From: Streptomyces sp. 846.5
GTDB taxonomy: Bacteria; Actinomycetota; Actinomycetes; Streptomycetales; Streptomycetaceae
DNA: 64,000 nt
Direction of reading: 5' to 3'
NCBI RefSeq assembly: GCF_004365705.1
Contig: NZ_SOBN01000001.1
Coordinates: forward strand, 1,426,001 to 1,490,000
Part shown: in pieces, positions 28,550 through 42,334 of the stretch
Layout of the letters: each line of letters opens with the position of its first letter
Position numbering within the stretch: the first letter of the stretch is position 1
Translations under genes and position numbers: made by a program
The notes under the pieces: model-generated
The model's database searches: none
What the model was told of the DNA's origin: nothing
Seen by the model: the letters and a program-made list of their open reading frames with translations, nothing else

Positions 28550-29383
28550 TCAACCCGGCCGGACGTCCAGGACGTAGCCCTGACGGGCCAGCCCGACCTG
28601 GCTGTCACCGCACCGCACTGTGCTCAACTCGTCCTGTAACAGATCGAGTTGGCCATCCGTCCGGGTCGGCGCGTGATGGGTGAGCACCAGTCGGCGGGCG
28701 CCGCAGCGGGCTGCGAAGGCGACGGCGTCCGGGACCGTGGCGTGGCCGTAGCCGTCGGCCAGGGCCCGCTCCCCGGCGAGGAACTGGCCGTCGTGGAGCA
28801 GCAGGTCCGCGTCGGCCGCCAGCGCCTCCGCAGCCGCCGAGCCGCCCGCCGGGGCGTGGTCGGGCAGATAGGCGAGCACCGCGCCGCCGGACTCGATCCG
28901 CAGCCCGTGGGTGAGGCCGCCCTTGTGCCGGATCTCGGCCGTGGTCACGGTGAACTCCTCGACCTGGCGCGGCCCCTGGACGGACCTGAGGAAGCGCCAG
29001 CTGCCGAGCAGCCCCTCCGGGCCGATCGGGAAGTGCGGCGGCGACATGGACCGGGCCAGCAGTTCGGCCGGCCCCGGCCCGCCTACCGGGGCGGGCAGCA
29101 GCAGGTCGACCCTGGCCTGCTTGCGGTCGACGGCCGGGCAGAACGGCAGGCCCTGGACGTGGTCCCAGTGCAGATGGGTGAGCAGCACGGAGCCCTGGAA
29201 CGCCTCCGCCCCGCCGAGCCGGGCGCCGAGATCCCGCAGACCGGTCCCGGCGTCCAGCACCAGAGTCGGGGCCTCGGCGCCCTCCGCCAGCACCGCCACG
29301 CAACTGGTGTGGCCGCCGTAGCGGTGGAACGCGGGCCCCGGCGCCGGGGTGGAGCCGCGCACGCCCAGCAGGATCACCCGCAT
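28550..29383 (-). CDS. MBL-fold metallo-hydrolase, possible cyclic-nucleotide phosphodiesterase
   Basis: A 277-residue metallo-beta-lactamase fold with zinc motif THLHWDHVQGLPF (HxHxDH), LPDHAP and the distal LTHHAPTRTD. The N-terminus VILLGVRGSTPAPGPAFHRYGGHTSC is shared with PhnP- and phosphodiesterase-like MBL proteins acting on phosphodiester bonds. Its start overlaps the end of the cyclic-nucleotide-binding gene by 10 bp, so both are made together. That context makes hydrolysis of a cyclic nucleotide attractive but unproven; RNA or another phosphodiester is possible. Confidence 0.88.
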   Translation of the reverse strand: MRVILLGVRGSTPAPGPAFHRYGGHTSCVAVLAEGAEAPTLVLDAGTGLRDLGARLGGAEAFQGSVLLTHLHWDHVQGLPFCPAVDRKQARVDLLLPAPVGGPGPAELLARSMSPPHFPIGPEGLLGSWRFLRSVQGPRQVEEFTVTTAEIRHKGGLTHGLRIESGGAVLAYLPDHAPAGGSAAAEALAADADLLLHDGQFLAGERALADGYGHATVPDAVAFAARCGARRLVLTHHAPTRTDGQLDLLQDELSTVRCGDSQVGLARQGYVLDVRPG

Positions 29384-30384
29384 CCCGCCCCGCCCTCCTC
29401 GCGGCGGTGCCCCTCCGAGAGCGCCCGCAGGGCGGCGGTGTCCACGGTCTCCGCCGCAGCCTCGGCGACCCGGACCGGGGTGACCGCGGTCAGCGTGGAG
29501 GTGCGCAACCCGCCCTCCAGGACCGCCCGTTCGCCGACCACCGCACCCGGGCCCAGCTCGGCCAGGCCGCTGCCGTCGACGTCCACCGCGACGATGCCGT
29601 CCAGCAGCAGGAACAGCGAACGCCCCGGGTCCCCCTGACGGACCAGCACCTCACCGGCGGCCAGCTCGCGCACGGCCGGGCGGCGTCCGCCGCGCATGAT
29701 CAGCGTGGACAGCTCGCGCTCCAGGGCCGTCTCGGCGGCGGTGACCAGTACCGGGGAGTCCTCGTCACCCCACGGGGTGTGCCGCCAGGAGTCCTGCCCG
29801 CTCCAGGCCTGCCAGTCGGCGACGCCGGCCTTCAGGCAGAGCCGGTCCTCCCCGTCGTACACCCAGTGCCTCGGGAACGGGCTGGCGCCCGCCAGCATCG
29901 GCACGGCCCGGCCGTCGGCGTGAAGGGTCAGCGTCAGGGTGGACCAGACGAAGGGGGCCTGCAGCCGGACCAGCGGGCGGCCCGGGATGCGGCGCGGCAG
30001 CGGAACGCCGGTGCGGCCGCCCACGGTCTGACTGAAGCGGACCCAGCCCTCCCCGCGTTCCGGCTCGCCGCGCAGCTCGGGCATGACCACGGCGGCGAAG
30101 GTCGCGCCGACCGGGCCGAGCCGCACCGTGGTCGAGCCCATCAGCAGCCCGCCGCCGGCCCCGCAGTCCAGCAGGGCGCCGTCGGCGTCGAACTCGGCCC
30201 AGCCGGTGAGCTGGTTGGCGAAGCGGAAGCCGTCCGCGGCCCGCAGCTTGTCGAAGTCCCTGATGACGTCCGGCGGCGGGTCGTCGTAGTGGCTGACGCC
30301 GGCCGTGAAGGCACCGCGCATGACCCCCTTCACGGCCTCGGAGGGTATCCAGGACAGTGAGGTGGTCCGTGACTCGATCCGCAT
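29374..30384 (-). CDS. cyclic nucleotide-binding (CNB) domain protein
   Basis: 336 residues. The first about 230 residues are not a family I recognise (VKGVMRGAFTAGVSHYDDPP, CGAGGGLLMGSTTVRLGPVG, RRIPGRPLVRLQAPFVWSTL). The C-terminal 100 residues form a CNB fold: LAAGEVLVRQGDPGRSLFLLL, DGIVAVDVDGSGLAELGPGA, and the phosphate-binding-cassette region VVGERAVLEGGLRTSTLTAV (GER...R-T-T). No DNA-binding HTH follows, so this is not a Crp-type factor. It is divergent from the response regulator-cyclase gene and co-translated with the MBL hydrolase. The ATG has GGAG 6 nt upstream. Confidence 0.85.
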   Translation of the reverse strand: MRIESRTTSLSWIPSEAVKGVMRGAFTAGVSHYDDPPPDVIRDFDKLRAADGFRFANQLTGWAEFDADGALLDCGAGGGLLMGSTTVRLGPVGATFAAVVMPELRGEPERGEGWVRFSQTVGGRTGVPLPRRIPGRPLVRLQAPFVWSTLTLTLHADGRAVPMLAGASPFPRHWVYDGEDRLCLKAGVADWQAWSGQDSWRHTPWGDEDSPVLVTAAETALERELSTLIMRGGRRPAVRELAAGEVLVRQGDPGRSLFLLLDGIVAVDVDGSGLAELGPGAVVGERAVLEGGLRTSTLTAVTPVRVAEAAAETVDTAALRALSEGHRREEGGAGCG

Positions 30385-30483
30385 CCCAGGCTCCGATCCG
30401 ATCTGAGCTTCCGTCAGGGTCTTTTCACACCGAAGACGTTAGGAGTCCGAGCCGGAGACCCCCAGGAGTGCTGCCCGACCGGG

Positions 30484-30501
30484 CCAGGGGTGCCAGCACC
30501 C
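30484..30501. promoter_or_regulatory. palindromic motif, copy 1 (rr-cyclase promoter)
   Basis: CCAGGGGTGCCAGCACCC, containing the perfect palindrome GGGTGC-CA-GCACCC. It ends right before the predicted -35 of the response regulator-cyclase gene. A related half (CCAGGAGTGCTGCCC) precedes it. An exact 18-bp copy occurs at 37501-37518. Confidence 0.65.
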
Positions 30502-30530
30502 TGTGAAGCCAGGCCGCGACACTGTGTAAT
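30502..30530 (+). promoter_or_regulatory. predicted promoter of the rr-cyclase gene
   Basis: TGTGAA (30502-30507), 17 nt, TGTAAT (30525-30530). Transcription would start at or just before the ATG at 30539, so the mRNA would be leaderless. No Shine-Dalgarno is present, which agrees. The weak -35 next to a palindrome suggests activator dependence. Confidence 0.45.
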
Positions 30531-30538
30531 GGTCCGTC

Positions 30539-31906
30539 ATGGAGAGCATCACGGTGCTGCTCGCCGACGACAATCTGATCGTCCGCGAGGGTGTGCGCGC
30601 ACTGCTGTCCCGCGACCGCAGTCTGGAGGTGATCGGCCTCGCCGCCGACTACGACGAGCTGGTCGACCGGGCCGAACGGCTGCGCCCGCAGGTGCTGGTC
30701 ACCGACATCAGGATGCCGCCGGACTTCCAGGACGAGGGCATCAGGGCGGCGCAGCAGGTACGGAAACAGCTGCCCGGTACGGGTGTTGTCGTCCTCAGCC
30801 AGTACGACGACCCGGACTACGCGGTGCGGCTGCTGGCCGAGGGGCAGGCCGGGTACGCCTATCTGCTCAAGGACCGGATCGCGGACGCCGGGCTGCTCGG
30901 CCGGGCGATCCGCGCGGTGGCCGGCGGCGGCTCGATGATCGACCCGCAGATCGTCCGGGAGCTGATGGAGCCCGCCAGGCGCGAGGGCGAGCTGTCGGAC
31001 GCGCAGGAGGACCTGCTGCGGCAGGTGGCCGAGGGACGGCCGGTGAAGGCCATCGCCGCGGGCCTCGGCCAACCGCCGGCCGCCGTCAACGACGCGGTGG
31101 AGAGCCTGTTCCTACGCCTGGCCAAGGACGCGGGCGGGGACCCCGGCGGTGGCAGGGACGGCGCGCTGCGGCGGTTGCGGCTGCTGCACACCGCGATCCT
31201 GCGCCGCGAGGAGCAGGGCGAGACCCTGTCCCGGCTGCTGCCCGGCGGCCTGGCCGAGAAGCTGCGCGCCGACCGCGGCGCGGCCACCCGCACCGAACGG
31301 CTCACCGTGACCGTGCTGATGTCGGACGTCCGGGGCTACTGCGGGATCGCCGAGCGCACCGATCCGGCGGACCTGGCCGGGCAGTTGGGGGCGCACCGGC
31401 GGGCCATGAACGCGGCGATCCTGGGCGAGGGCGGCACCGTGATGCAGTACGTCGGCGACGCGGTGATGGCGGTCTTCGGGGCGCCCGAGCCGCAGCCGGA
31501 CCACGCCCGACGGGCCGTCAGGGCGGCCCGGGGGATGCACCGTCGCCAGCGCGAGCTGGACCAGGAGTGGGAGGCCCTCGGCCTGGTCCCGTTCGGACTG
31601 GGCATCGGGCTCAGCACCGGCGAGGTCGCGGCGGCGCTGCTGGGCAGCGCCGAGCGGCTGGAGTACACCCTGGTCGGCGACACCGTGAACCTGGCCCAGC
31701 GGATGCAGGACCTGGCCCGTCCGGCCGGGACCACGGTCGCCACCGGCAGCACCGTGGACGCGGTCGGGGCCGCCGACGAGACCTGGCCCTGGTCACCGCT
31801 GGGGCCGTGCCGCGTCAAGGGCCACACCGCACCGGTGGTGGCCTTCCGGCTACCGTCAACAGCCAATCGGGGGACAGAAGATGAGTACCGGTCAGACAGA
31901 GGCTGA
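30539..31906 (+). CDS. response regulator with class III nucleotidyl cyclase output
   Basis: A 455-residue fusion. Receiver (1-125): LLADDNLIVREG, Asp56 in VTDIRMPP, LSQY, Lys111 in YLLKDRI. A NarL-like linker with a degenerate helix region (150-200) follows, then a class III cyclase domain (about 255-430). Metal-binding aspartates lie in VLMSDVRGYCGIA and YVGDAVMAVFGAPEPQ; the transition-state Asn and Arg are in VGDTVNLAQRMQ. The usual base-recognition Lys before the second Asp is Gln (VMQYVGD), so ATP versus GTP use is uncertain. Phosphorylation probably gates cyclic-nucleotide synthesis. Its 3' end overlaps the ABC ATPase gene by 26 bp. Confidence 0.92.
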   Translation: MESITVLLADDNLIVREGVRALLSRDRSLEVIGLAADYDELVDRAERLRPQVLVTDIRMPPDFQDEGIRAAQQVRKQLPGTGVVVLSQYDDPDYAVRLLAEGQAGYAYLLKDRIADAGLLGRAIRAVAGGGSMIDPQIVRELMEPARREGELSDAQEDLLRQVAEGRPVKAIAAGLGQPPAAVNDAVESLFLRLAKDAGGDPGGGRDGALRRLRLLHTAILRREEQGETLSRLLPGGLAEKLRADRGAATRTERLTVTVLMSDVRGYCGIAERTDPADLAGQLGAHRRAMNAAILGEGGTVMQYVGDAVMAVFGAPEPQPDHARRAVRAARGMHRRQRELDQEWEALGLVPFGLGIGLSTGEVAAALLGSAERLEYTLVGDTVNLAQRMQDLARPAGTTVATGSTVDAVGAADETWPWSPLGPCRVKGHTAPVVAFRLPSTANRGTEDEYRSDRG

Positions 31907-32615
31907 GGAAGCTCCGGCACCCGCAGTGCGCACCCGGGGCGCGCGCCGGGTGTTCACCGCGGAGCTGGCCCCGGTACGGGCACTGCGCGGGGTGGACTTC
32001 GAGGTCGCGGAGGGCGAGTTCGTCGCGGTGATGGGCCCCTCCGGCTGCGGCAAGTCCACCCTGCTCAATGTGATCGCCGGGCTGGACACCGTGGACGAGG
32101 GCACCGTGGAGGTGGCCGGGGAGCGGGTGGACGGCCGGGACCAGGACTGGCTGGCCCGGTTCCGGCGGCACCGGATCGGCTTCGTCTTCCAGTTCTTCAA
32201 CCTCCTCGACGGGGTGTCGGCGCTGGACAACCTGGTGCTGCCCGGCGTCCTCGGCGGGATGGGCCGCAAGGCCGCCGAGTCGCGGGGCCGGGACCTGCTG
32301 GACATCCTCGGCCTGGGCGACCGCACCACCCAACTGCCGTCCATGCTCTCCGGCGGCCAGCGACAGCGGCTGGCCATCGCCCGCGCCCTGGTCAACAGAC
32401 CGGGACTGCTGCTCGCGGACGAGCCGACCGGGGCGCTGGACAGCGACGGCGGCGCGGAGGTGCTGGAGCTCTTCCGGCGGCTGCACGAGGACGGCCAGAC
32501 CATCGTCATGGTCACCCACTCCCCCGAGGTCGCGGCCGGCGCGGACCGCGCGGTGCGGATGCGGGACGGCCGGGTCGTGGACGCCGGCGTGACCGGGGAC
32601 GGCGGCGCGCCATGA
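31881..32615 (+). CDS. ABC transporter ATP-binding protein (MacB/LolD type)
   Basis: A 244-residue ATPase of the MacB/LolD/FtsE class. Walker A GPSGCGKST (52-60), Q-loop VFQFFNLLDGVSALDN (Gln104), signature LSGGQRQ (156-162), Walker B LLLADEPTGALD and H-loop VTHSPEV. The phrase SALDNLVLP after the Q-loop is typical of exporters that drive FtsX-like permeases. It overlaps the upstream cyclase gene by 26 bp and the permease start by 4 bp, so this is a tightly coupled operon. Confidence 0.95.
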   Translation: MSTGQTEAEEAPAPAVRTRGARRVFTAELAPVRALRGVDFEVAEGEFVAVMGPSGCGKSTLLNVIAGLDTVDEGTVEVAGERVDGRDQDWLARFRRHRIGFVFQFFNLLDGVSALDNLVLPGVLGGMGRKAAESRGRDLLDILGLGDRTTQLPSMLSGGQRQRLAIARALVNRPGLLLADEPTGALDSDGGAEVLELFRRLHEDGQTIVMVTHSPEVAAGADRAVRMRDGRVVDAGVTGDGGAP

Positions 32616-35017
32616 CCTTCACCGCCCTGTGGCTGCGCATGGAACTGCGGCGCAGGCTGCGCTCCCTGATCGTGCTGGCGCTGCTGGTGGCGCTGGCCAC
32701 CACCGCCGTGCTGGCCTCGGTGGCCGGGGCCCGGCGCGGGGACACCGCGGTGGCCCGGCTGGCGGCGCGGACCAGCCCGGCCGACATCACCGTGCTGCCC
32801 AACCAGCCCGGTTTCGACTGGGACAGGATCAGGGCGCTGCCCGAGGTCGCGGCCGTCACCACGTTCGTGATCTCCTCCTTCCAGATCGAAGGCATCCCGG
32901 ACCACTCCACCGGCTTCGCGGTCGGCGACGACGCGAGCATGCGCACCATCGAGCGTCCGATCGTGCTGCAGGGCCGACTCGCCGACCCGACCCGTGACGA
33001 CGAGGTGGTGGTCAGCGCGCACTTCCCGGGGGCGTTCCACGAGGGCGTCGGGGACTACCTGACGCTTCGCCTGTTCACCCCCGCGCAGATCGACGCCTAC
33101 GTCACCGGGGCCGACCCGGGAGCCGCCAAGGGGCCCTCGATCCGGGCCCGCATCGTCGGCGTCGTCCGCTCGCCGTGGTACCACGACACCATCGGCGACC
33201 AGGGCAGCGTCGCCGCGTCGGCCGCGCTCTACCTGGACCACAAGGCCAACTTCCTCGGAAACACCCAGCAGATCTACCTCAATGCCCTGGTCCGGCTGAA
33301 CGGCGACGAGAAGACGATCCCGGAGTTCCGCGCCGACCTGGCCCGGGTGTCCGGTCGCACCGACATCGACATCTGGGACAACACCGACATCCAACGCCAC
33401 GCGAGCCGGGTCGACGCCTTCGAGGGCGACTGCCTGTACGGCTTCGCGGGCGCGGCACTGATCGCCGCGCTGTTCCTGGTCGGCCAGTCGGTGGTGCGCT
33501 ACACCACGGCCACCGTCTCCGACCTGCAGACCCTGCGCGGGGTCGGCCTGGGGAACCGGCAGGCGCTCGCGGCGGCATCGGCCGGGCCCTTCCTCGCGGC
33601 CGTCTGCGGCGCCACGCTCGGGGCCGCCGCGGCGGTCGGGGTGTCCCGGTGGATGCCGATCGGCGCCGCCGCGCTCTACGAGCCGAGCCCGGGCTTCGAC
33701 GCCGACTGGACCGTACTGGTCGGCGGCTGGTTCGCGGTGCCGCTGCTGGTGCTCGCCGGGGCGGCGTCCGCCGCCGCGCTGGCCCTGGCCGCCGCCCGGT
33801 CGCGCACGCTGCCCCGGCGCTCCGCCGTGGCCGTGGCGACCGCCAGGGCGGGGCTCCCGGTGCCGGTCGTGGTCGGCACCCGGTTCGCGTTGGAGCCGGG
33901 ACGGGGACGCACGGCAGTGCCGGTGCGCCCCGCACTGCTGGGCGCGGTAATCGGGGTCCTGGGCGTGCTGGCGGCCTTCACCTTCGCCGCCGCCGTCACC
34001 GACGCCGCCGCGAACCCGGCCAGGTTCGGCCAGACCCACCAACTGGAGAGCTTCATCGGCCTCAACAGCGCGGACTTCGGCAAGGCCGACCCCGTGCTGG
34101 CGAGAATCGCCGCCGATCCCGCGGTGACTGCGGTGAACGACGCCAGGATCGCCGTCGCCGAGTCGGCGGACACCTCCGTCACCACCTACACCATCGACCC
34201 GGTCGGCGGAAAGCCGCTGTCGGTGGTCACCGTCGCGGGCCGACTGCCGCAGGCGGCGGACCAGATCCTGCTCGCGCCCACCAGCGCCCGGCTGTTGCAC
34301 GCCGGCGTCGGATCGCGGATCACCCTGACCGGCGCCGCTCGGGCCCGGCGGGAGTTCACCGTGACCGGCATCGGCTTCGTCCCCGAGGGCTCGCACAACG
34401 ACTACGACGCGGGGGCCTGGGCCACCACCGACGGCTACCGCGCGCTGTTCGGCACGACCTTCAAGTTCCATGTCGCCGAGATCGCCCTGCGTCCCGGTAG
34501 CAGCACCACCGGGATGATCAGGCAGTTGCAGCGCGACGTGGCGCCGCTGACCGGCGGCCATCCGGTGAGCCTGGACCCGGTGACCGCGCCGCAGCAGCTC
34601 GCCGAGATCCAGGACGTGCAGACCCTCCCGCTGTTCCTCGGCGGCTTCCTGCTGCTGCTCGCGGCCGGGGCCGTCGGCCATGCCCTGGCCACCGCGGTGC
34701 GACGGCGACGCCATGACGTCGCGGTGCTGCGAGCCCTGGGCATGACGAGGCGTCAGTCCCGGCTGGTGGTGGTCGTGCAGGCCACGGTGCTGGCCCTGGT
34801 CGGGCTGGGGTTCGGGATTCCGCTGGGCCTGGCGCTCGGGCGCACCCTGTGGCGCCAGGTCGCCGACAGCACCCCGCTGGCCTACCACCCGCCGCTAGCC
34901 CTGCTGGCGCTGGTGCTGGCCGGACCGGTCGCGCTGCTGCTGGCCAATCTGCTCGCCGCCTGGCCCGGACACCGCGCCGCGCGGCTCCATGTCGGACACA
35001 CCCTGAGAGCGGAGTGA
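32612..35017 (+). CDS. ABC transporter permease, FtsX/MacB family
   Basis: An 801-residue membrane protein with duplicated FtsX-type modules. There is one N-terminal helix (about 16-38), a large extracytoplasmic domain (about 40-270), helices near 275-295, 322-345 and 368-392, another near 440-462, a second extracytoplasmic domain (to about 670), and three final helices (about 676-785). The cytoplasmic coupling segments DLQTLRGVGLGNRQ and DVAVLRALGMTRRQSRL are characteristic. Such systems move lipids, lipoproteins or peptides, or act as mechanotransmitters. Substrate unknown. ATGA overlap with the ATPase gene. Confidence 0.94.
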   Translation: MTFTALWLRMELRRRLRSLIVLALLVALATTAVLASVAGARRGDTAVARLAARTSPADITVLPNQPGFDWDRIRALPEVAAVTTFVISSFQIEGIPDHSTGFAVGDDASMRTIERPIVLQGRLADPTRDDEVVVSAHFPGAFHEGVGDYLTLRLFTPAQIDAYVTGADPGAAKGPSIRARIVGVVRSPWYHDTIGDQGSVAASAALYLDHKANFLGNTQQIYLNALVRLNGDEKTIPEFRADLARVSGRTDIDIWDNTDIQRHASRVDAFEGDCLYGFAGAALIAALFLVGQSVVRYTTATVSDLQTLRGVGLGNRQALAAASAGPFLAAVCGATLGAAAAVGVSRWMPIGAAALYEPSPGFDADWTVLVGGWFAVPLLVLAGAASAAALALAAARSRTLPRRSAVAVATARAGLPVPVVVGTRFALEPGRGRTAVPVRPALLGAVIGVLGVLAAFTFAAAVTDAAANPARFGQTHQLESFIGLNSADFGKADPVLARIAADPAVTAVNDARIAVAESADTSVTTYTIDPVGGKPLSVVTVAGRLPQAADQILLAPTSARLLHAGVGSRITLTGAARARREFTVTGIGFVPEGSHNDYDAGAWATTDGYRALFGTTFKFHVAEIALRPGSSTTGMIRQLQRDVAPLTGGHPVSLDPVTAPQQLAEIQDVQTLPLFLGGFLLLLAAGAVGHALATAVRRRRHDVAVLRALGMTRRQSRLVVVVQATVLALVGLGFGIPLGLALGRTLWRQVADSTPLAYHPPLALLALVLAGPVALLLANLLAAWPGHRAARLHVGHTLRAE

Positions 35018-35021
35018 GCCG

Positions 35022-37172
35022 ATGGCCTCCAAGTCGTCGCGGCTGCTGGTCGTCCTGGCCGCCCTCGCCGTGCTGGCCACGGCGGTGGACGCGGTGCGCC
35101 GCCCGGACGGCCTGCGCACCGCCTCCACCGTGGTCGCCGTCGGCTGGCTGCTGGCGGCGGCCGGCTGCGGACGGGCCGGACTCGCGGCTCCCGCCCGGCT
35201 GGCCGTTGTGCTGACCATCAGTCAGGCAGCGGCCTCGGTATGGCCGTCCTGCGCGCCGCTCACCCTGGCGGCCTGGACCTGGGGCGGCCTGGCGCTGCCC
35301 GACGGACGGCTCGGTCACCCCCGGCGGCGCGTCGCGGTCGGTCTGGTCTACGCCGTCGCCACCGCCTGGACCGTCCTGGCCTGGCACTCCACCGCCGTCC
35401 ACGGGCCCGCCGCCGGTCCCACCGCGGCCGGCGTGCTCGCCGCCACCGCCGTCATCGTGGCCGGGGTCGCCCGCCGCTGCCGGCGCTCCGGGGCCGCGCG
35501 CCGACGCGTGCTGCAGTGGGTCGCCGCCGGCACGGTGACGGCGGGCGCGGCCGACGCGGTGCTGCTGGCGCTGCACGTCCTGGTCGGCATTCCGGCGGCG
35601 CTGGCCCCGTGGGCGCTGGCGGCGCTGGTGCTGATCCCGGTCGGCAGCCTGCTCGGCCAGCTGCCGGGCAGCGCCCGGCTCGCCGAGCGGGCGCTGCTGG
35701 AGGCCGTCACCACCTCCGGCCTGGCCTGCCTGGTGGTGGCCGTCTACCTGGTCACCGTCGTCGGCCTGGGCCGCGCCCCGGTCGGCCGGGAGCGCGACGT
35801 CCTCGCCTACAGCGTCACCGCCGCCCTGGTCTGCGCCGCGCTGGCACTGCCGGCGCGGGTACGGCTCAACGGCCTGGGCCGCTCAGTGCTGCGGCTGGGC
35901 GAGCTGGCCCCCGAGGAGGCGCTGTCCGGCTTCGGCGCGCGGATGACCCGCTCCGTGCCGTTCGACGAGTTGCTGCTCCAGCTGGCGGAGTCGCTGCGGG
36001 CCACCCTGGGCCCGGCCGGGGCCGAGATCTGGGTCGGCGGCGACGGTCTGCTCACCCGGACCGTGAGCGTCCCGGACCGGCCGCAGCGGCGGATCAGGCT
36101 GACCGAGCACGAGCGGGCCGTGGTCGGGCGGACCAGGATCGGCGGGGCCGGCTGGACCGGGATCTGGATGGCGGAACTGCTGGCCGACCCCGACCCCGAC
36201 CCGGACTCAGACCCGGACGCAGACCCCGACACGGGGCCGGGACGGGACGGCGAGCCGCTGGTCCGGGTCGCCCCGGCTGCCCACGGCGGAGAGCTGCTGG
36301 GCCTGCTGCTGGTGCGCCGGCCACCCGACGGCGCGCCCTACTCGGAGGCCGACGACCGGGTCCTGGTCGAGCTGGCCCGCCAGGTCGGCCTGGCCCTGCA
36401 CAACGTCCGGCTGGACTCCGCGCTGCAGGCGTCGCTCCAGGAACTGCGCTCCCGCAACCAGGAGCTGCGGGACTCCCGGCTGCGCCTGGTGACCGCGGCC
36501 GACGCCTCCCGCCGGGAGATCGAGCGCAATCTGCACGACGGCGCGCAGCAGCACCTGGTCGCCCTGTCGGTGAAGCTCGGGCTGGTACGGGAGCTCGTCG
36601 ACAGCGGAGACACCGGCGACGGCGGCGCCGAGGACCGGGCCACCGTCGCCGCGCTGCTGGAGGAGCTGCGCACCGACGTCCAGGGCACGGTCGCCGCCGT
36701 GCGGGAGCTGGCGCACGGCATCTACCCGCCGCTGCTGCGCAACCACGGCCTGGGGCAGGCGCTGCGCTCGGCGACCCGGCGCTCGGTGCTGCCCTGCACC
36801 GTCTCGGTCGACCTGCCCGGACGCTACCCGGAGGCCGCCGAGGCGGCGGTCTACTTCTGCTGCCTGGAGGCGCTGCAGAACGCGGGCAAGCACGCGGGCC
36901 CGGACGCCTCGGTGTCGGTGCTGGTGGAGGCGGGCGACGGGGTGCTGCGGTTCCGCGTCAGCGACGACGGCCGGGGCTTCGCCTCGGACGGCGCGGCGAC
37001 CGGCAGCGGCTTCGTCAACATGGCGGACCGGCTCGGCGCGATCGGCGGCCGGCTCACGGTGGAGTCGCACCCCGGTCAGGGCACCTCCGTCGGCGGCGAG
37101 ATCCCGGTCTCCGCCCCGCCGCAGACCAGCTCGCGCAGCAGCGAGGGGGTCAGGTCGTCCTTGTGGACGTAG
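35022..37172 (+). CDS. GAF-domain sensor histidine kinase (HisKA_3)
   Basis: 716 residues. About eight hydrophobic helices fill residues 1-265, then a GAF-like domain (about 300-465), a coiled segment, HisKA_3 with His505 in REIERNLHDGAQQHLVALSV, and HATPase (FCCLEALQNAGKHAG, SDDGRGFASDG, GSGFVNMADRLGAIGG). An Asp-Pro repeat (about residues 388-403) interrupts the GAF domain. It starts 4 bp after the permease stop, so the exporter and kinase are co-expressed. The last 97 bp overlap the convergent receiver gene, giving a non-conserved Ser-rich tail. Likely partners are the three receivers in this island. Confidence 0.92.
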   Translation: MASKSSRLLVVLAALAVLATAVDAVRRPDGLRTASTVVAVGWLLAAAGCGRAGLAAPARLAVVLTISQAAASVWPSCAPLTLAAWTWGGLALPDGRLGHPRRRVAVGLVYAVATAWTVLAWHSTAVHGPAAGPTAAGVLAATAVIVAGVARRCRRSGAARRRVLQWVAAGTVTAGAADAVLLALHVLVGIPAALAPWALAALVLIPVGSLLGQLPGSARLAERALLEAVTTSGLACLVVAVYLVTVVGLGRAPVGRERDVLAYSVTAALVCAALALPARVRLNGLGRSVLRLGELAPEEALSGFGARMTRSVPFDELLLQLAESLRATLGPAGAEIWVGGDGLLTRTVSVPDRPQRRIRLTEHERAVVGRTRIGGAGWTGIWMAELLADPDPDPDSDPDADPDTGPGRDGEPLVRVAPAAHGGELLGLLLVRRPPDGAPYSEADDRVLVELARQVGLALHNVRLDSALQASLQELRSRNQELRDSRLRLVTAADASRREIERNLHDGAQQHLVALSVKLGLVRELVDSGDTGDGGAEDRATVAALLEELRTDVQGTVAAVRELAHGIYPPLLRNHGLGQALRSATRRSVLPCTVSVDLPGRYPEAAEAAVYFCCLEALQNAGKHAGPDASVSVLVEAGDGVLRFRVSDDGRGFASDGAATGSGFVNMADRLGAIGGRLTVESHPGQGTSVGGEIPVSAPPQTSSRSSEGVRSSLWT

Positions 37173-37468
37173 CCGACCGCACCGCAGTGCGCCGCCTCGG
37201 CCGGCAGGTCCCCGGCGGCGTAGGTGGACAGCAGCACCACCGCGGTGCCCGGCTGCCGCTCCAGGATCCGGCGGGTGGCCGCGATCCCGTCCATGCCGGG
37301 CAGGTTGATGTCCATCAGCACCACCCCGGCCCCCGCCGCCCGGGCCACCGCCTCCTCGCCGGAGGCCGCCTCGGCCAGGATCCGCCAGCCCGGGATCCTG
37401 GCCACGATCATCCGGGCCACCGACCGGAACAGCGGCTGGTCGTCAACGATCAGCACGGTACGCTCCAT
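37076..37468 (-). CDS. stand-alone receiver-domain protein
   Basis: 130 residues, only a receiver: LIVDDQPLFRS (Asp9, Asp10), Asp53 in VVLMDINLPGMDG, LLSTYAAGD, and the conserved Lys in GYVHKDDLTP. No DNA-binding or enzymatic output, so it probably acts as a phosphate sink or protein-protein switch. The frame is open to 37516, but the ATG at 37468 gives the receiver N-terminus. It starts 10 bp after the NarL-type regulator gene and overlaps the kinase gene end by 97 bp on the opposite strand. Confidence 0.88.
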   Translation of the reverse strand: MERTVLIVDDQPLFRSVARMIVARIPGWRILAEAASGEEAVARAAGAGVVLMDINLPGMDGIAATRRILERQPGTAVVLLSTYAAGDLPAEAAHCGAVGYVHKDDLTPSLLRELVCGGAETGISPPTEVP

Positions 37469-37478
37469 GCCGCCAGGA

Positions 37479-38180
37479 TCATCCCTGCGCCGCACCCGTA
37501 CCAGGGGTGCCAGCACCCGGGTGTGCGGCGAGATACAGCAGCACCGCCTTCACCCTCCGGTTGACGTCCGGCTCGGAGGTCAGCCCGAGCTTGGCGAAGA
37601 GCACATTGATGTGCTTCTCGACGGCGCGCTCGGACAGGTAGAGCGCGGCGCCGACCGCGGCGTTGCTCTTGCCCTGGGCGATCTGCGCCAGCACCTCGCC
37701 CTCCCGGCGGGACAGCCCGGCCAGCGGCGAGCTGCGCTCCTGCACGGCGTCGGCGACCAGCGCCTCCACCACCACCGGGTCGATGAAGGAGCCCCCCACG
37801 GCCACGCTGCGCACCGCCCCGGCCAGCTGGCCCGGCTCGCCGACCCGCTCCTTCAGCAGATAGGCGCGGCCGGCGCTGCCCTCGGCCAGCAGTGGCGTGG
37901 CGTAGGCGGGTTCGGCGTACTGGGAGAGCACCACCACGCCGATCGCCGGGTGGCTGCGGCGCAGCCGGACGGCCGCCCTGATGCCCTCGTCGGTCGAGGT
38001 GGGAGGCATCCGGACGTCGGTGACCACCACATCGGGACATTCGGCGTCGACCGCGGCCAGCAGACCGGGAAGATCACCGCAGACCCCGACCACCTCCAGG
38101 TCGTGCTGGCGGTCGAGCACTTGGCGCACACCCTCGCGGACCAGGAACGAGTCCTCCGCGATGACGATCCGCAGCGTCAC
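37479..38180 (-). CDS. NarL/LuxR-type response regulator
   Basis: 233 residues. Receiver: VIAEDSFLVREG, Asp55 in VVTDVRMPPTSTDEGIRAA, VVLSQYAEPAYA, Lys in AYLLKERV. HTH: LSRREGEVLAQIAQGKSNAA and LYLSERAVEKHINVLFAKLG. The receiver is strikingly like that of the response regulator-cyclase (TDxRMPPxxxDEGIRAA and VVLSQYxxPxYA), so the two are paralogues probably served by one kinase. GTG start. A good candidate for binding the palindromes at 30484 and 37501; the latter lies inside its own 3' end. Confidence 0.92.
   Translation of the reverse strand: MTLRIVIAEDSFLVREGVRQVLDRQHDLEVVGVCGDLPGLLAAVDAECPDVVVTDVRMPPTSTDEGIRAAVRLRRSHPAIGVVVLSQYAEPAYATPLLAEGSAGRAYLLKERVGEPGQLAGAVRSVAVGGSFIDPVVVEALVADAVQERSSPLAGLSRREGEVLAQIAQGKSNAAVGAALYLSERAVEKHINVLFAKLGLTSEPDVNRRVKAVLLYLAAHPGAGTPGTGAAQG
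37501..37518. promoter_or_regulatory. palindromic motif, copy 2 (upstream of stand-alone receiver)
   Basis: Exact 18-bp copy of the element at 30484-30501. It lies 32 bp before the stand-alone receiver start and inside the coding end of the NarL-type regulator gene (the codons for GAGTPGT). Confidence 0.55.
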
Positions 38181-40606: not shown

Positions 40607-42334
40607 ATGGAGTCCCAGCCCCAGCAGGAGCCCCAGCAGTGGGCAACCGTCGACCCGACCGAACCCCGTCTCGCCGTTGCCGCCCGCGCTGCCCGCGCCG
40701 GCGCCTACGAGTGGGACCTGGCCACCGGTGACATCCTCTGGGACGACGCCGCCTGCCGGATGGTCGGCACGGCCCCCGACGCGTTCGCGGGCCGTGCCGA
40801 GGCGTTCTTCTCCGCCCTGCACCCCGACGACGCCACCCGGATATCCGCCGCCACCGCCGCGGTCATCGAACGCGGCGGCACCTACCGCAACCGCTACGAG
40901 GTCATCCACCCCGACGGCAGCGTCCGGCAGCTGGAGGAGCGCGGCGAGGTGCTGATCGGGCCGGACGGACGTCCGGACCGGGTCACCGGGCTGCTGCTGG
41001 ACCGCACCGACGAGGCCGGCGACCCCGGCCGACCGCTCGCGCCCACCCCGGTGGTCCGACCGCGCACCCCCTGGTTCCGCAGCGCGCTGCCCTGGCGCGG
41101 CGGCAGCACCCCCGCGAGCTCCGCCGACTCCTTCCTGCTCACCCTCTCCCGGGCGCTGTCCAGGGCGGCCAGCGTCGCCGAGGTGACCCGGGTCATGACC
41201 GACATCGCCCGCCCCGCGCTGAACGCGGACCACCTGCTCATCGAGGCCGACGCGAACAACCCGGAGCACCCCTGCGTCGTCGTCGGCGCCGCGGCGACCG
41301 AGGCGATGCGCCGCGCGGTCCAGGACGAGGAGCCGCTCTTCCTGGAGGGCGCCGCCGTACCCCCCGACGACGGCGGGCCCGCCGTCGTCCGCTCCTGGGC
41401 AGTGCTCCCGCTCACCGGCGCCGACGACGGCCGCGGCGCCTGCCTGTTCGACTTCGCCGGCGCCAGGACCTTCGATGACGGGCAACGGACCCTGTTCACC
41501 GCCGTCGCCGGCATCCTCGCCCACGCGCTGGCCCGGGCCCGGCTCTTCGACCGCGAGCACCAGTGGGCGGCCGAGCTCCAGCGCGCCATGCTGCCCCGCG
41601 GAGTCCCGACCGTCCCCGGCCACGCCACCGCCGTGCGCTACCTGCCCGGCACCACCGGGATGGCCGTGGGCGGCGACTGGTACGACGTGCTGACGCTGCC
41701 GGACGGCCGGGTGGGCCTGGTCATCGGCGACGTCCAGGGCCACAGCGTGGAGGCCTCCGCCGTGATGGGCCAGCTGCGGATCGCGCTGCGCGCCTACGCC
41801 GCCGAGGGCCACTCCCCCGGCACGGTCCTGGCCCGCACCGGACGGCTCCTCGCCGACCTGGACACCGACCTCTTCGCCACCTGCTGCTACCTCTCGCTGG
41901 ACCCGGCCACCGGCGCGATCGAGGCGGCCAGGGCCGGCCACCCGCTCCCGGTCCGGATAGCCGGCAGCCCCGGCGCCGCCCTCGACACCGACGACCTCCG
42001 CACGGCCGTCGAGCTGGACCTGCCCGGCGGCCCGCCGCTCGGCGTGGACCCGCAGGCGCACTACCCCGCGACGGCCACCGCCCTGGCCCCCGGCGAGACC
42101 CTGCTGCTCTACACCGACGGCCTGATCGAGTGCCGGGGCGAGTCCATCGACACCTCGCTGGACCGCCTGCTGGCCACCGTCACCGACTGGACCCGCGACG
42201 CCGACGCCGATCCGGACCTGGACCTGGACCTGAACCGGCTGGAGCGCCTCGCCGACCACCTGGTCCGGCCTTGCCAGGCACAGAGCCCGCGCGCGGACGA
42301 CGTCGCCGTCTTCCTGCTGCAGCGACGTTCATAA
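40607..42334 (+). CDS. PAS-GAF-SpoIIE (PP2C-type) phosphatase
   Basis: 575 residues. A PAS domain (about 25-125; AARAGAYEWDLATGDILWDD, ending in ERGEVLIGPDGRPDRVTGLL), a GAF-like domain (about 175-310), then a SpoIIE/PP2C domain (about 320-575). Metal motifs are VGGDWYDVLTLPDG, VIGDVQGHSVEASAVMGQLR, LLLYTDGLIE and the terminal RADDVAVFLLQ. Such proteins dephosphorylate anti-anti-sigma factors and so free SigB/SigF-type sigma factors. A group-3 sigma of that type is in this window, but a direct link is inference. No HATPase_c kinase domain is attached. Confidence 0.92.
   Translation: MESQPQQEPQQWATVDPTEPRLAVAARAARAGAYEWDLATGDILWDDAACRMVGTAPDAFAGRAEAFFSALHPDDATRISAATAAVIERGGTYRNRYEVIHPDGSVRQLEERGEVLIGPDGRPDRVTGLLLDRTDEAGDPGRPLAPTPVVRPRTPWFRSALPWRGGSTPASSADSFLLTLSRALSRAASVAEVTRVMTDIARPALNADHLLIEADANNPEHPCVVVGAAATEAMRRAVQDEEPLFLEGAAVPPDDGGPAVVRSWAVLPLTGADDGRGACLFDFAGARTFDDGQRTLFTAVAGILAHALARARLFDREHQWAAELQRAMLPRGVPTVPGHATAVRYLPGTTGMAVGGDWYDVLTLPDGRVGLVIGDVQGHSVEASAVMGQLRIALRAYAAEGHSPGTVLARTGRLLADLDTDLFATCCYLSLDPATGAIEAARAGHPLPVRIAGSPGAALDTDDLRTAVELDLPGGPPLGVDPQAHYPATATALAPGETLLLYTDGLIECRGESIDTSLDRLLATVTDWTRDADADPDLDLDLNRLERLADHLVRPCQAQSPRADDVAVFLLQRRS

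Follow-up and report, generated by a model that had tools for sequence, protein, structure and literature searches.

A receiver-cyclase and a cyclic-nucleotide-binding reader as the core of a candidate two-component signalling cassette in Streptomyces sp. 846.5

Gene content of the locus

The DNA analysed here, referred to as the window, is a stretch of 64,000 nucleotides from the 9.0-Mb genome of Streptomyces sp. 846.5 (contig NZ_SOBN01000001.1, positions 1,426,001 to 1,490,000; all coordinates below are those of the window). At 28550-38180 it carries eight genes, confirmed by open reading frames (ORFs) and Pfam searches, which together appear to form a cyclic-nucleotide signalling cassette under two-component control. 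The core of this cassette consists of a class III cyclase fused to a receiver (CYC, the putative writer) and a protein with a cyclic-nucleotide-binding (CNB) domain, here called the reader; the exporter and the metallo-β-lactamase-fold protein (MBL) encoded next to them are optional.

The genes for MBL (277 amino acids, 28550-29383; Pfam Lactamase_B_2, 71.5 bits), a hydrolase and candidate cyclic-nucleotide phosphodiesterase (PDE), and for the reader (336 amino acids, 29374-30384) are located on the reverse strand. Divergently from them, the forward strand encodes CYC (30539-31906), a MacB/LolD-like ABC ATPase (31881-32615; ABC_tran, 118 bits; alternative start 31926), an FtsX-type permease of 801 amino acids (32612-35017; FtsX, 57.9 bits) and a membrane histidine kinase (35022-37172; Pfam HisKA_3 and HATPase_c). 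A simple hydropathy scan revealed 8 hydrophobic segments in the permease and 6 in the kinase. For the ATPase, MacB is the top NCBIfam match, though far under its cut-off. The reverse strand then encodes a stand-alone receiver (REC, 37076-37468; Response_reg, 71.3 bits) and a NarL/LuxR-type response regulator (RR, 37479-38180; Response_reg and GerE). The REC reading frame can be read from a GTG at 37516; the ATG at 37468 is the more likely start. The genes are tightly packed, with overlaps of 26 bp (CYC/ATPase), 4 bp (ATPase/FtsX) and 10 bp (reader/MBL) and a gap of 4 bp between the FtsX and kinase genes, and the 3' end of REC overlaps the 3' end of the kinase gene. A preliminary description of this DNA had named these genes and their overlaps, all of which are present, the total being eight rather than seven. 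It had also spoken of a GAF histidine kinase; the kinase is there, but its GAF match (19.5 bits) lies under the Pfam cut-off of 28.6.

Linkage of the cyclase and the reader

A genome contig search yielded 46 reader loci (loci are numbered L, genomes G), one of which, L051, was found by the CNB domain alone. The reader is rare in the family, where 2 of 150 genomes, the one studied here included, carry it; within the phylum, its N-terminal domain (NTD) was detected in 30 out of 396 genomes sampled. The taxa represented among the reader loci include Streptosporangiaceae, Acidimicrobiaceae, Ilumatobacteraceae, Nitriliruptoraceae, Candidatus Dormiibacterota and Chloroflexi metagenome-assembled genomes (MAGs). 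Judged by the reader protein, Streptacidiphilus jeojiense is the closest named relative (95%). A plasmid search for the reader returned a single record, which covers the CNB part alone. The counts below leave out the duplicates L082, L084 and L086, the S. jeojiense repeat L005 and the CNB-only L051.

In the 30 genomes with the NTD, which contain 214 PF00211 matches in ~106.6 Mb, a PF00211 cyclase lies within 5 kb of at least 21 of 37 reader genes, with 0.96 expected from the PF00211 density of each genome; the 21 were counted among the matches listed, with readers near contig ends kept in, and both of these lower the number. Just one PF00211 match is present in each of six of these genomes. 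It is located less than 3 kb from the reader in five of them (G158, G240, G347, G430, G484), and in the sixth, G458, its position was not among the matches listed. With our own cyclase profile a cyclase was found within 5 kb in 51 of 77 distinct loci and in 27 of the 37 loci whose flanks extend 5 kb or more in each direction. Since the cyclases used to build this profile were themselves neighbours of readers, the PF00211 comparison is the fairer one. The linkage of cyclase and reader is not due to chance.

Receiver-cyclase and reader genes diverge in 28 loci, where they lie 102-310 bp apart as measured between profile ends. Larger gaps are present in L018, L029, L087, L088, L104 and L115, and in L033 the cyclase follows on the same strand. 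Some readers have other partners, i.e., a GAF-cyclase (L094 by Pfam, L096 by likeness) or a cyclase-STAND-TPR protein (L032, L091, L093, L095, L105, L106 and L112 by Pfam; L040, L043, L097, L111 and L113 labelled by our own profile or likeness). For L111-L113, shared stop-to-stop ORFs had suggested a fusion of cyclase and reader, which was rejected, as the two genes lie next to each other in different frames. On a quick reader tree, which also leaves out the split or partial readers L047, L048, L049 and L114, at least five changes of partner type were counted, with labels assigned by us and only cyclase-labelled loci considered (L109 was labelled 'none' despite a weak cyclase match there). The distances between readers and those between their receiver-cyclases are correlated (n=36, r 0.83, 0 of 2000 permutations).

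Receiver-cyclases are present in 38 loci, 23 of which have at least 8 kb upstream; genes outside the available flank are invisible in these data. The 23 well-flanked loci contain a kinase in 22 cases, REC in 18, a LuxR-type RR in 17, MBL in 13, the ATPase in 12, FtsX in 12 and a flavoprotein in 9. The complete gene set is found in 5 of the 38 loci (L006, L009, L010, L090 and the window). Of the co-occurrence that had been proposed for these genes, the joint retention of cyclase and reader was borne out, and one fixed module was not. The pair of writer and reader under likely two-component control is supported in Actinomycetota, in Candidatus Dormiibacterota and in one Chloroflexi MAG (L030).

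The receiver-cyclase

CYC comprises a receiver (residues 6-106), a linker resembling a helix-turn-helix (HTH; ~152-196, by eye) and a class III cyclase domain (256-429), as judged from Pfam, alignment and catalytic residues. In the receiver, D10, D11, D56 and K111 are invariant in 24 orthologues, as in phospho-receivers of the NarL type. The protein shares the layout of LuxR-type RRs of the NarL/FixJ group (e.g., MadR, MctR), and its residues 4-175 align with positions 1-172 of the MadR model. Unlike in these regulators, the LuxR-like HTH region gives no match to the NarL/FixJ HTH family GerE at E 0.01, and a cyclase domain follows it.

The two metal-binding aspartates of the cyclase domain, D263 and D307, are invariant in the 24 orthologues and in 36 receiver-cyclases (34 full, 2 partial); the transition-state residues N384 and R388 are invariant in the same orthologues and in all 34 receiver-cyclases readable at six positions. 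At the purine-selecting position, where adenylyl cyclases carry Lys, all 36 receiver-cyclases (the 34 fully readable ones and the truncated L033 and L092) have Gln, which is Gln303 in CYC. The second position is occupied by Thr in 16 and by Ser in 18 of the 34. Gln is present also in both GAF-cyclases and in two of the STAND type (L095, L105); Lys is found in L043, L091, L093, L106, L109 and L111-L114. The cyclase domains of Synechocystis Cya2 (2w01), a guanylyl cyclase, and of Spirulina CyaC (1wc0) are among the top PDB sequence matches of CYC. They differ from it in the residue at the purine-selecting position (Glu in 2w01, Lys in 1wc0 and 3r5g), and in CYC the domain is preceded by a NarL-type receiver and the HTH-like linker. 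We favour cAMP as the first and cGMP as the second choice for the messenger.

The cyclases beside the readers of L032, L040 and L097 have neither Gln nor Lys and have also lost the usual Asn; they look degenerate and may be inactive.

The reader and its N-terminal domain

The CNB domain of the reader (residues 239-314; 29443-29670, reverse strand) was identified with PF00027 (cNMP_binding) at 60.4 bits, the cut-off being 27.5. Its phosphate-binding cassette (GE...R) includes G284-E285 and R294-T295; E285, R294 and T295 are each conserved in 90% or more of 42 reader sequences, E285 and R294 not being universal. A Thr following the cassette Arg is found in cGMP-binding kinases, and similar residues are found in cAMP binders. 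As such residues occur in both, Thr295 does not decide the ligand.

Within residues 1-336 no HTH family, including the C-terminal HTH of CRP/FNR regulators, was detected by Pfam at E 0.01, and at the same threshold no named domain precedes the CNB domain. The absence of an HTH and the unfamiliar NTD of ~230 residues, both pointed out in the preliminary description, thus stood up to the Pfam and PDB sequence searches. This NTD (residues 1-231; 29692-30384, reverse strand) is the putative output of the system. When 37 NTDs were compared with Pfam at E up to 10, no consistent family emerged, stray families touching one or two members each. The single PDB sequence matched by the NTD profile was that of an antibody (E 0.22), and a viral fold search gave nothing usable. 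AlphaFold models of the full reader and of the NTD alone have a mean predicted local distance difference test score (pLDDT) of 85.4 and 81.7, respectively. The NTD is predicted to be β-rich, and the best Foldseek match of its model on PDB is 3c5p, a structure of undescribed function (both chains; E 2.7e-4, TM 0.47/0.54). No other structure reached E ≤0.001; the next one was 9fei (E 1.6e-3, TM 0.25/0.29). Fourteen residues (H32, Y33, D34, D35, D39, R54, N57, Q119, R172, H173, K185, E218, E222 and R223) are invariant in the 37 NTDs, and these conserved, largely polar positions suggest catalysis or ligand binding.

With the full-length reader model, CNB-domain proteins are among the best 50 Foldseek matches listed, including the CNB domain of PycTIR (8jsk) and 5h5o. 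The latter leads to Xanthomonas, where a CNB protein likewise works with a class III cyclase, XC_0250. The structure 5h5o was deposited as a diguanylate cyclase; here, the CNB domain is joined to an undescribed partner domain and the cyclase to a phospho-receiver. The Xanthomonas CNB protein XC_0249 is described as binding cGMP, and N143 of PsPycTIR is given as the uracil-reading Asn of its CNB domain (PMC11224242).

The match to PycTIR raises the question of Pycsar-like antiviral signalling, in which the cyclase product would trigger the CNB effector and the NTD would be toxin-like. Indeed, a gene pair of a class III cyclase and a CNB effector is the plan of Pycsar (PycC with PycTIR or PycTM), and PADLOC models match the CNB domain of the reader (TIR effector, 36.5 bits; PycTIR, 34 bits) and CYC (PycC, 66.3 bits). 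These matches fall, however, on the generic CNB and cyclase domains. Unlike in Pycsar, the cyclase here carries a phospho-receiver and is accompanied by a kinase, an RR and an operator, and the reader has neither a TIR domain nor a hydrophobic segment that could correspond to a transmembrane effector part (Pfam, hydropathy scan). Furthermore, many of the cassettes hold a possible phosphodiesterase, whereas Pycsar signals are reported to stay intact in E. coli or B. subtilis lysates (PMC9117128). We consider an antiviral role very improbable.

A candidate operator

The palindrome GGGTGCTGGCACCC occurs twice in the cassette: at 30488-30501 in the gap between the reader and cyclase genes, as part of a 19-mer (operator 1, 30484-30502), and at 37505-37518, 36 nt before the ATG of REC and within the 3' end of the RR gene (operator 2, 37501-37519). 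At up to 2 mismatches the 19-mer has two sites in the whole genome, both in the cassette, and at up to 3 mismatches it has 13 sites, compared with 8 for a reversed control. Within the window, the 14-mer at up to 2 mismatches gives 7 matches versus 2.87 in shuffles, with 3 of 100 shuffles reaching 7, so that weak matches carry little weight.

Across loci, a site was scored when at least 9 of 10 arm bases matched within 130 bp upstream of a gene, and the expectation (given here in brackets) was derived from shuffles; closely related loci are not independent in these counts. The operator lies upstream of CYC in 24 of 38 cases (2.8), of the reader in 26 of 75 (4.4), of REC in 15 of 24 (1.8) and of RR in 5 of 23 (1.0). 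The corresponding values are 0 of 31 (1.6) for the histidine kinase, 3 of 22 (1.4) for FtsX, 2 of 18 (1.3) for the ATPase and 1 of 26 (1.05) for MBL. The REC and genome-wide results are the cleaner tests, because CYC and the reader share one region in which the motif was first found. Tested region by region, the operator beats shuffles at 0.05 in 17 of 31 intergenic regions. The LuxR-type RR is the likely binder of this operator, being the sole cassette protein with a GerE match. The operator had been overlooked in the preliminary description; the system is real, with a core narrower (cyclase and reader) and a control richer (a dedicated operator) than described there.

An exact copy of GGGTGCTGGCACCC is found in the gap between the reader and FtsX genes of an Ilumatobacteraceae MAG (L044:4282-4458), in whose available DNA no cyclase was found.

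The metallo-β-lactamase-fold protein

MBL carries the motif THLHWDH. The pattern [T/S]HXHXDH, given as the signature of the atypical class-II PDEs, a group described as close to RNase Z (PMC9293780), fits 15 of 17 sequences including that of the window; the other two begin with G. MBL shares the fold and this signature with the PDEs Rv1339, CpdA and YhfI, and in BLAST it aligns with the NF041851-type protein of its own genome over 246 amino acids (32.5% identity, 67.4 bits), as opposed to 54 amino acids (33.9 bits) with the RNase Z of the genome. YhfI is reported to prefer cAMP/cGMP (PMC9117128). The profile of the MBL family scores 60.3 bits on the PDE-type protein and 53.2 bits on the RNase Z of the genome. 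Both of these are encoded separately. MBL is a paralogue residing in a cyclase-reader cassette, and it differs from the PDEs in scoring 50 bits with NF041851 versus 234 bits for the genome's own full-length member; the cut-off of 400 bits is reached by neither, and weak NF041851 matches occur in 13 of 14 control genomes. In a PDB profile search with MBL, Apyc1 appeared at E 0.099. The role of an eraser, already suggested in the preliminary description, is still inferred; it is likely but not settled.

Proposed relay and its alternatives

We propose that the locus is a dedicated relay from a two-component system to a cyclic mononucleotide with transcriptional feedback on the cassette, and we put the probability of this at about 0.64. 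Phosphorylation of the CYC receiver by the membrane kinase, for which the FtsX transporter may be a sensor part or target, would switch the class III cyclase domain. The cyclic mononucleotide formed (most likely cAMP, next cGMP) would bind to the CNB domain of the reader and alter the activity of its NTD, the real output. MBL, whose gene overlaps that of the reader, would hydrolyse the messenger, which is the weakest step. Acting on GGGTGCTGGCACCC, the NarL-type RR or a different factor would set the expression levels of REC and of the divergently transcribed cyclase and reader, making the circuit self-regulating, and REC may be a phosphate sink. The gene content, the conserved linkage, the conservation of catalytic and binding residues and the operator with its position are observed; the activities, the direction of control, the nucleotide and the operator-binding protein in this scheme are predictions.

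Several observations weigh against the relay. The correlation of reader and receiver-cyclase distances would also be expected from a shared history of the species, loci that are nearly identical were counted separately, and the operator fails to beat shuffles at 0.05 in 14 of the 31 intergenic regions, that of L008 included. By our own profile, ten of the 37 well-flanked loci lack a class III cyclase in the 5 kb around the reader: nine (L017, L020, L027, L028, L034, L047, L101, L102, L107) show none in the available DNA, and L104 has one at 6.6 kb. In addition, every readable receiver-cyclase has Gln in place of the substrate-binding Lys, and therefore both activity and product are uncertain. 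Taken together, the last two points would fit a CYC domain that makes no nucleotide and acts as a binding or scaffold module, with the reader sensing the general cAMP pool. A dead enzyme would not need the metal Asp pair and the transition-state Asn and Arg, all of which are kept, and this possibility appears highly unlikely to us. Rv0386 of Mycobacterium tuberculosis, with Gln/Asn at these positions, is reportedly an active adenylyl cyclase.

MBL and the exporter, furthermore, are each missing in about half of the well-flanked receiver-cyclase loci. The exporter figures in another explanation, a transporter-centred stress module of FtsX transporter, kinase and RRs, in which the cyclase and the reader would only fine-tune exporter expression. 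The single strand-unit formed by cyclase, exporter and kinase in the window is consistent with it, as is the number of kinases, which is at most one in receiver-cyclase cassettes with FtsX and two or three in eight without it. Yet FtsX and ATPase are each absent in 11 of the 23 well-flanked loci while cyclase and reader are kept, and the operator is barely enriched before the FtsX or ATPase genes. Such a module is unlikely, if less so than the two possibilities discussed above.

Concerning the off-switch of the relay, the scores for MBL point partly in the other direction. The NCBIfam model RNase_Z (51.5 bits; best stretch residues 167-248) is level with the PDE model NF041851 (50.2 bits), the MBL of L083 scores 44.9 bits with the former and 30.6 bits with the latter, and a PDB profile search ranks RNase Z structures (63.1 bits, E 2.2e-16) above YhfI (32.7 bits, E 4.1e-7). 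MBL could thus be an RNase-Z-like nuclease acting on RNA, leaving the relay without a dedicated off-switch. The RNase_Z cut-off of 293 bits is, however, not reached by MBL; the separate RNase Z of the genome matches over residues 1-300 of 302 at 277 bits and is itself just below the cut-off. We regard the nuclease role as the less probable one, though it is the likeliest of the alternatives considered here.

Most work on bacterial cyclic mononucleotides concerns cAMP and CRP-type readers. Here, the writer, the reader, the kinase and a DNA switch sit together, and therefore messenger, receptor and output are testable in one system. The NTD would be an output of an undescribed kind, the Gln-type pocket raises the question of which nucleotide CYC makes, and the operator, both close genomic matches of which fall in the cassette, offers a handle on the regulon. 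A search of the openly licensed PMC literature with narrow word combinations found no paper on this gene set. More tentatively, the cassette may represent a widespread, unrecognised signalling class, with phosphorylation-gated Gln-pocket cyclases, a dedicated operator and a CNB-gated effector whose NTD has a new enzymatic or ligand-binding fold. It would spread and be maintained as a unit among deep-branching members of Actinomycetota, Dormibacterota and Chloroflexota and might use a messenger other than cAMP; we hold this broader view to be somewhat short of an even chance.

Genomic surroundings and accessory genes

Within the genus, the gene for the flanking APC protein is present in 14 of 14 genomes and that for the flanking α/β hydrolase in 6 of 14. 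Of these six, two carry the cassette; the two genes lie at distant positions in G030, G046 and G054, and G042 has them on separate contigs. At 16 loci of the relatives' APC gene, no cassette gene adjoins within the 1.5-kb flanks, save for a weak ATPase match in one. Downstream of the cassette, the window encodes at 40607-42334 a protein of 575 amino acids resembling, by eye, PAS/GAF proteins with a SpoIIE-type phosphatase.

Eight cassettes lacking FtsX (L013, L016, L035, L039, L087, L088, L100 and L103) have two to three histidine kinase genes in a row, which suggests that several sensors feed one receiver-cyclase. A CrtI/CrtO-like flavin oxidoreductase of ~475 amino acids is encoded in 15 of the 38 receiver-cyclase loci, that of the window not being among them. 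It is found close to the reader or the kinase in many cassettes, e.g., in L007-L011, L014, L024, L026, L027, L030, L033, L037, L044 and L045, and may give a hint to the biology of the NTD. Finally, a gene for a plastocyanin/azurin-like copper-binding protein is located between cyclase and kinase in L018, L029, L046, L087 and L088 (identified by Pfam in L029). This protein is probably secreted and is a possible redox or copper input.

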